64,000 nucleotides of DNA from Leptotrichia hofstadii (GTDB lineage Bacteria; Fusobacteriota; Fusobacteriia; Fusobacteriales; Leptotrichiaceae): assembly GCF_007990525.1 (NCBI RefSeq), contig NZ_AP019823.1, forward strand, positions 1,302,001 to 1,366,000. The letters run 5' to 3'. The position numbers were made by a program, and so were the translations under genes. The notes under the pieces are model-generated. The model worked only from the letters and a program-made list of their open reading frames with translations, searched no databases and was not told where the DNA came from. Position 1 is the stretch's first letter, and each line of letters begins with the position of its first letter. Below, piece after piece: positions 38,650 through 44,927 of this stretch.

Positions 38650-38696
38650 TTTAAAAATGTGGTATTCGCCCTTTATAATAAAATTATAAGATAAAT

Positions 38697-38716
38697 AAAA
38701 AAAAAAAAAAAAAAAA
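38697..38716 (+). repeat. Homopolymer of 20 A
   Basis: A run of 20 A between galU and the small lipoprotein gene, about 30 nt upstream of a TATAAT (38746-38751). Tracts this long are prone to slippage, and the position is that of an UP element. Confidence 0.85.
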
Positions 38717-38787
38717 CGGTAACTATGATAAAATTATAGCAAATATATAATTTAGTAAGGATAAAATAATACAAAGGAGTGAATGCT

Positions 38788-38970
38788 ATGAAAAATGTAT
38801 TTAGAATTCTGGCTGTAATTTTGTTGGGACTAAGTGTAGCAGGCTGTGAATTGTTTAGTCCAAGTTATTGGAACAGAGTAAATAAAAGATGGGAAGAAAG
38901 AGGCGTACAATGTTATGAAAGATATGATGGACATGTCTATTGTGAAGATAAGGACGGAAATCGTTTTTAA
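38788..38970 (+). CDS. Small lipoprotein
   Basis: 60 residues. Signal peptide with lipobox LSVAGC, so the mature lipoprotein is about 41 residues. Mature part ELFSPSYWNRVNKRWEERG then CYERYDGHVYCEDKDGNRF: two cysteines that may form a disulfide. AAAGGAGTG upstream of the ATG. Similar tiny lipoproteins with a Cys-Tyr pattern exist in relatives, but no function is known to me. A terminator follows. Confidence 0.78.
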   Translation: MKNVFRILAVILLGLSVAGCELFSPSYWNRVNKRWEERGVQCYERYDGHVYCEDKDGNRF

Positions 38971-39004
38971 TTTGTAAGTTTATCTAAATAGATTGTTATG
39001 CTTG

Positions 39005-39038
39005 GAAGTAGAATTTTTAGGATTCTGCTTCTTTTTTT
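39005..39038 (+). terminator. Rho-independent terminator of the lipoprotein gene
   Basis: GAAGTAGAAT pairs with ATTCTGCTTC (one G-U), 7-nt loop, then TTTTTTT. Confidence 0.9.
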
Positions 39039-39079
39039 GAGAAAAATTTAGAAATATTAAAATTTATCATGTTTTGTAA

Positions 39080-39300
39080 TTTAAAAAACAAAAATTACTG
39101 AACTCAAAAGTTATGACTATTTACTCAAACCCTTAGTTATACTATTCCCTATCAAAACAATGTAGTTTTTATAATTCCGTTTAGCAAGGGGTCAAGACCC
39201 CTTGTCAGAAAGTGAAATAGGAAATCATTTCTTTTTTCAAATGGGGTTTAGTATTGATATAATTTTTAATAGTTTAATTTTAAATGGATTCGAGTATATA
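39080..39300 (+). repeat. Dispersed repeat family 1, copy D, interrupted by an insertion
   Basis: Left part (about 39080-39138) contains ACTGAACTCAAAAG and GACTATTTACTCAAACCCTT. Right part (about 39255-39300) contains ATAATTTTTAATAG and TTTAATTTTAAATGGATTCG. Joined together they match copies A-C. The 116 bp between them belong to repeat family 2. Confidence 0.75.
39139..39254 (+). repeat. Dispersed repeat family 2, copy b, nested in family 1
   Basis: Left end ATACTATTCCCTATCAAAA, right end CAAATGGGGTTTAGTAT, imperfect inverted repeats as in copy a. Inside is the hairpin CAAGGGG/CCCCTTG (39185-39204) followed by TCAGAA, also found at 52959. No gene. Inserted in the middle of a family 1 copy, so it is the younger of the two here. 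Confidence 0.7.
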
Positions 39301-39306
39301 TTAAAA

Positions 39307-39372
39307 ATACTAGGTTTTATACGCTGTCAAATAAGTTTGTAATAAATTTCTTATTTAGGCGGAGTTTAGTAT
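39307..39372 (+). repeat. Short repeat-family-2 derivative
   Basis: ATACTAGGTTTTATA at the left and GGCGGAGTTTAGTAT at the right enclose 66 bp. It looks like an internally deleted family 2 copy. It ends 74 nt before the folB start. Confidence 0.4.
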
Positions 39373-39445
39373 TAACACTATTTATTTTTAAGATTTTATA
39401 TGTTAAAATATACACAAACTTTAAATAGAAATGAGGTAGATTCAA

Positions 39446-39796
39446 TTGTATATAATAAAGATTAATAACATGAAATTTCATTCATATATAGGTGTTTATG
39501 AAGAAGAAAAAAAAATTGGACAAAATATTGAAATTGATTTAATCATTTCACTTTCAAAGGAAATCATTAAAAATGATGACATAAATAGTACATTGAGTTA
39601 TGGAGATTGTTATAGAAAAATAGAGGAAATTGTTAAAGCAAGCAGAGTAGATTTGCTGGAAACATTGGCTTTGGATATTATAAAAGAGATAAAAGAAATG
39701 AATGAAAAAATCGAATATGTGCAAGTAAATATACGAAAATTAGCAGTTCCGATTAATGGAATTTTTGACAGTGTTGAAATTCAGATAAAAGATTAG
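39446..39796 (+). CDS. folB: Dihydroneopterin aldolase FolB
   Basis: 116 residues. It converts dihydroneopterin to hydroxymethyl-dihydropterin in folate synthesis. FHSYIGVYEEEKKIGQNIEIDL is the conserved N-terminal region with the catalytic Tyr/Glu, and LLETLALDI and VRKLAVP-like (IRKLAVPINGIFD) are the later signatures. The start is a TTG at 39446 preceded by GAGGTAG. folK follows 27 nt downstream, as in many folate operons. Confidence 0.92.
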   Translation: MYIIKINNMKFHSYIGVYEEEKKIGQNIEIDLIISLSKEIIKNDDINSTLSYGDCYRKIEEIVKASRVDLLETLALDIIKEIKEMNEKIEYVQVNIRKLAVPINGIFDSVEIQIKD

Positions 39797-44820: not shown

Positions 44821-44927
44821 TTATACTCGAACCCGTTTAAAATTAAACTATTAAAAATTATACAAACTTAGGGTTTGAGTAAATAGTCATAGCCTTTGAG
44901 TTTTGTTTTAAAGTGGTTTTACTATAA
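44821..44927 (-). repeat. Dispersed repeat family 1, copy C (inverted)
   Basis: Read on the minus strand it starts TTATAGTAAAACCACTTTAA and ends TTTTAAACGGGTTCGAGTAT, in full agreement with copy A. It begins 2 nt after the folP stop. It contains an apparent in-frame start (44896) for the next gene, which is an artefact. Confidence 0.82.

Follow-up and report, generated by a model that had tools for sequence, protein, structure and literature searches.

The window analyzed here, a stretch of 64,000 nucleotides (G000:C1:1302001-1366000) from a 2.6-Mb source genome designated G000, contains nested repeats between a small lipoprotein-like open reading frame (positions 38779 to 38970 of the window) and a folB-like open reading frame (39446 to 39796). 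A whole-genome BLAST search with positions 39080 to 39300 as the query gave 59 matches and confirmed that two unrelated repeat families are nested in this galU-folB interval. A copy of family 1 (approximately 102 bp) is interrupted at 39137 to 39256 by a member of family 2 (114 bp). The two halves of family 1 (query positions 18 to 59 and 174 to 221) were contiguous at many other sites of the genome, and the middle part (query positions 58 to 183) had two further near-full copies with 92 to 94% identity.

All features of the nested locus were placed on the plus strand. The interrupted family 1 MITE consists of a left part (ACTGAACTC...CCCTTAG; 39097 to 39136) and a right part, which ends in GAGTA followed by TA (39257 to 39296); both were delimited by alignment to a consensus (TATAGTAAAACTnCTTTAAAACnGAACTCAAAAG...TTTTAAATGGGTTnGAGTATA) built from 20 aligned, uninterrupted copies found elsewhere in G000. 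Between them lie a TTA triplet (39137 to 39139), the 114-bp family 2 MITE with imperfect terminal inverted repeats (TIRs) (TACTATTCCC...GGGGTTTAGTA; 39140 to 39253), and a TTG triplet (39254 to 39256) that is one base off the left TTA. The limits of the family 2 element follow its other copies and the match of its TIRs to a 1111-bp IS630-type element. The triplets were assigned as target site duplications, the left one from the empty site of another family 2 copy and from a table of flanks (both described below) and the right one from L. hongkongensis and genome G003, where the TTA/TTG pair recurs. A core hairpin (CAAGGGGTCAAGACCCCTTG; 39185 to 39204) lies within family 2, an element with a folding z-score of -4.3, and recurs at 10 or more further sites of the genome, several of which belong to a different MITE family. 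A 5′-truncated member of a third MITE subfamily (39305 to 39371), with a right end of the family 2 type (GGAGTTTAGTA) followed by TTA and with fuller copies such as L022 and L027, adjoins family 1, placing three mobile remnants within less than 300 bases.

The family 1 consensus aligned locally to the window with a score of 125 once the insert was removed, up from 72 with it present. Taking out family 2 together with one TTA/TTG triplet restored the consensus across an ungapped junction, for which the predicted uninterrupted sequence is CCCTTAGTT(A/G)ATATAATTT. These results, like the BLAST matches and the 20-copy alignment, agree with the initial annotation that a family 1 copy is cut midway by family 2 and that joining the flanks restores it. 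The proposed boundaries, a 116-bp element with the ends ATACTA...TAGTAT, had to be revised, since they overshoot by one base at either end: the element is 114 bp with the ends TACTA...TAGTA, and removal of 116 bp leaves one extra base. The site was also said to give the exact ends of both elements. However, the nested family 1 copy is recognizable only from 39097 to 39298, and its first ~20 bases, with the 5′ terminal repeat TATAGTAAAACTGCTTTAAAAC, are degenerate or lost, so that this site does not define precisely where family 1 begins and ends. The reverse order of events, in which a family 2 copy would have acquired family 1 sequences on either side, found no support and has practically no chance of being correct: it is refuted by the consensus alignment, in which family 1 halves that are contiguous at many places are restored exactly on joining, and family 2 stands alone elsewhere in the genome.

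An uninterrupted, TA-flanked family 1 copy at approximately 44825 to 44925 (minus strand) is absent from G008, where the empty site reads AATTT-TA-AAATTAAAG. Comparison with the filled site, which has a TA on each side, gives a TA duplication for family 1. A scan of family 1 flanks found TA on the left in 12 and on the right in 15 of 16 rows, one of which is a false overlapping row.

Two other copies of family 2, G000:C1:68805-68918 and G000:C1:1442694-1442817, could be compared with empty sites. The filled site of the latter reads GAATTAATTT-TTA-TACATTCCCC...GGGGTTTAGTA-TTA-TTATAAACA. In G010 and G002 the site is empty (GAATTAATTT-TTA-TTATAAACA), with small changes further out only, and it is likewise empty, with small changes, in G003. 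The duplicated stretch is TTAT at most, and we chose TTA because the ends then become symmetrical. G003, G008, and G010 lack the copy at 68805, and its site fits TTA when small changes are allowed. Among 15 elements with ends of the family 2 type (TIR, TACTAWWCCCC; ends written TACTATTCCCC), 29 of the 30 flanking triplets were TNA. The left and right triplets were the same in 9 of the 15 pairs against a mean of 5.0 after shuffling, a modest excess over what the TNA preference itself yields, and flanks agreeing at one or four bases were found in none of the 15. The target site duplication of family 2, which the initial annotation had left to be defined, is thus 3 bp of the form TNA, seen as TTA/TTG at the nested site. 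A TA duplication was rejected for this family, since the empty site would then be 3 bases longer than the one observed. Empty sites were available for one copy of family 1 and two of family 2, and they show each family to be mobile as a discrete unit, as had been proposed for family 2, whose insertion into family 1 shows the same.

Both families have the hallmarks of MITEs. Family 1 is ~102 bp long and noncoding, with the TIRs TAGTAAAAC/TACTCAAAC; family 2, at 114 bp, is below 400 bp, noncoding, and bounded by TIRs; and both have dispersed copies, filled and empty orthologous sites, and a target duplication. It is very unlikely that family 2 is instead a static regulatory or structural repeat, such as a terminator- or REP-like palindrome, that arrived by recombination or gene conversion between repeats. 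Such an origin would suit its strong hairpin (z-score, -4.3), the presence of the core hairpin in another repeat family, and the near-identity of the nested element in three species (1 difference per 167 bases), but it is largely refuted by the sister species, whose empty sites are precise and reveal a 3-bp duplication, and the match of the TIRs to IS630-type elements and the TNA at 29 of 30 ends are signatures of transposition.

Parents of the two MITE families were sought at transposase loci, namely, those with PF13358 (DDE_3) in sister species and those with DDE_Tnp_4 and DDE_Tnp_1. Two insertion sequences (ISs) of sister Leptotrichia matched. The type A IS (940 bp; ends TATAGTGAAAC...GTTTTACTATA) matches family 1, with family 1 TIRs at loci L252, L253, L254, and L262, and the type B IS (1111 to 1113 bp; ends TACTAAACCCCG...GGGGTTTAGTA) matches family 2, with family 2 TIRs at L255, L257, and L266. 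Each family thus has TIRs that match those of an autonomous element, one that could supply a transposase in trans. The type A transposase matched PF13358, PF01710, and the NCBIfam IS630 profile NF033545 (120.9 bits), and the type B transposase matched PF13358 and NF033545 (124.4 bits). Type A has a spacing of 34 residues between the last two catalytic positions (D-34-E), and type B one of 31 (D-31-E). In intact-looking copies, both transposases are encoded in two overlapping frames, which suggests that they may be made by frameshifting.

The 2-bp TA duplication of IS630 elements was found for type A and family 1, in the empty site of G008 and in the flanks of the copies, but not for type B and family 2, which show the 3-bp TNA; copies of type B are flanked by TTA/TTA, TAA/TAA, and TTA/TGA. 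Type B is therefore placed in IS630 by its transposase only, as a variant. No empty site was found for an autonomous type B copy, its flanks not being contiguous in any sister genome. In G006, the family 2 TIR pattern gave paired ends ~115 bp apart and no more widely spaced, autonomous pair. The MITEs and the ISs have only the last ~20 to 25 bases at the ends in common, too little to show an origin of the MITEs by simple internal deletion of an IS. No intact transposase of either type was found in G000, only decayed fragments, one type A-like (72% over 57 amino acids, at 756.9 kb) and one type B-like (43% over 68 amino acids, at 1866.2 kb), and the MITE copies in this genome are thus probably no longer mobile.

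Some IS5-type elements generate TNA duplications, and an IS5/IS1031-like parent was first suspected for family 2 from its TTA duplication. None of the DDE_Tnp_4 and DDE_Tnp_1 ends checked matched; one candidate of the DDE_Tnp type defines a different MITE family, and another IS, in G001, has the ends GGGCGTGTCTGAAAACTC. Mobilization of family 2 by the IS5-type (DDE_Tnp_4) element of G000, rather than by an IS630-type transposase, would draw support from the copy of that element in the genome, with its frames disrupted, from MITEs that bear IS5-type ends and have the same core hairpin as family 2, and from the TNA duplications of some IS5-type elements. However, the ends of this IS (AGACCTGTTCGA(C/T)AACTT) are quite unlike TACTAWWCCCC and are borne by MITEs of its own, and the family 2 ends are matched by the IS630-type B element, leaving the IS5-type element only a slim chance of being the mover.

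The IS5-type element (L210; G000:C1, ~2450.6 to 2451.5 kb), whose ends AGACCTGTTCGACAACTT differ from those of family 2, probably gave rise to the hairpin MITEs that bear its ends. The core hairpin CAAGGGGTCAAGACCCCTTG (39185 to 39204; L013 to L019), which family 2 has in common with MITEs of an unrelated family (ends AGACCTGTTCGATAAC), is absent from the IS5-type element with AGACCTGTTCGATAAC ends. Several places in G000 (L132 to L139) also have elements of 196 to 460 bp whose family 2-type ends bracket a recurring module (CGTCGGAGCATTTTTCTG...GGATTTGCGGCAATGAGCAATCCTACG); they appear to be composites in which two MITEs flank a third repeat.

The nested form is present, with identical boundaries and TTA/TTG flanks, in G000, G002 (L. 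hongkongensis), and G003, the latter two being the species closest to G000. Among 13 genomes of the genus, these three had the nested form and the others were without the block that carries it, and none had a family 1 copy without family 2 at the same locus. This ~710-bp block (38653 to 39375), which comprises the lipoprotein gene and the nested repeats, lies between galU and folB only in these three genomes; it is missing as a whole from G004, G008, and G010, and in Leptotrichia sp. oral taxon 879 its place is taken by a short terminator-like sequence. The folK-like gene in the window shares 98% identity with its counterpart in Leptotrichia sp. oral taxon 879 and 93% with the one in L. hongkongensis JMUB5056. 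Across the three species with the nested form, the nested region (~39120 to 39286; L104 and L105) has 0 to 1 differences per 167 bases and the surrounding DNA differs by ~4%, possibly as a result of recent exchange or conversion. Since the nested arrangement and its flanks are common to all three, family 2 would have entered family 1 before these species diverged, barring an exchange of the block among them, for which the unusually low divergence leaves room.

From the observed nesting, the match of the TIRs to two ISs, the empty sites, and the duplications, we conclude with a probability of about 0.88 that these are nested IS630-type MITEs, in which a later family 2 element inserted into an older family 1 element, each probably moved in trans by a TIR-matched transposase of the IS630 family (DDE_3). 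The older family 1 MITE lies between the small lipoprotein gene and folB. Family 2 would later have inserted into a TTA (or TTG) in the middle of it, in the common ancestor of the three species, duplicating the three target bases. Neither element codes for protein, and the transposase would have been supplied by a full-length IS, probably the 940-bp, TA-duplicating type A IS for family 1 and the 1111-bp, TNA-flanked type B IS for family 2. By analogy with ISY100 (PMC2170065) and RUP/IS630-Spn1 (PMC2229807), on which this scheme is modeled, the transposase of the full element would bind the common ends, excise the MITE, and insert it at a TA target in the case of type A or at a TNA target in the case of type B. 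Such cut-and-paste mobilization in trans is what we infer from sequence.

RUP of Streptococcus pneumoniae, an intergenic MITE of ~107 bp with TIRs matching IS630-Spn1 and TA flanks, has been found inserted in other mobile elements, and its mobilization in trans has been inferred (PMC2229807). It is a direct parallel to family 1 in size, intergenic location, IS630 TIRs, and TA flanks, although its sequence and host phylum are different and family 2 is flanked by TNA instead of TA; unlike the RUP/IS630-Spn1 pair, the Leptotrichia parents reside mainly in sister species, and G000 has yielded fragments only. The Correia/NEMIS repeats of Neisseria, hairpin MITEs of ~107 to 155 bp with TA ends and with filled and empty sites (PMC2229807), are similarly short and hairpin forming, with TIRs unrelated to the Leptotrichia families. 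ISY100 and IS630 are bacterial ISs of the Tc1/mariner type with a TA duplication (PMC2170065); type A resembles them in its DDE transposase of the same family and its TA duplication, whereas type B has TNA triplet flanks and the D-31-E spacing in place of the D-34-E of type A.

Nested MITEs and IS630-derived MITEs are known kinds, and these Leptotrichia families were not found in the literature searched, which held nothing specific on Leptotrichia MITEs or on IS630 elements with TNA. Otherwise ordinary, these nested MITEs are slightly unusual only in that an IS630-type family duplicates 3 bp (TNA), where the bacterial members studied duplicate TA. The IS630-Tc1-mariner group does include departures from TA, such as the TAA and TAAA of Fot (PMC7386202) and the TATA of Sailor (PMC8533490); the portions of those two papers drawn on here describe no TNA in a bacterial IS630 element. 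On balance, we lean slightly toward the view that in the type B lineage and its MITEs a bacterial Tc1/mariner-type transposase changed its cut stagger and target rule, using a 3-bp TNA and not TA, and that TA and TNA lineages coexist and nest within one genus. Duplications of 3 bp may likewise be made by the Zator elements of eukaryotes and by TP36 of bacteria, which lowers the claim of novelty for TNA.

With these results, many of the repeats dispersed between Leptotrichia genes can be understood as IS630-type MITEs, two of the families have defined ends and target rules, and their relative date is set, family 1 being the older. If confirmed biochemically, the TNA rule would provide a bacterial relative of IS630 with a 3-bp stagger for comparing how such transposases choose and cut their targets.
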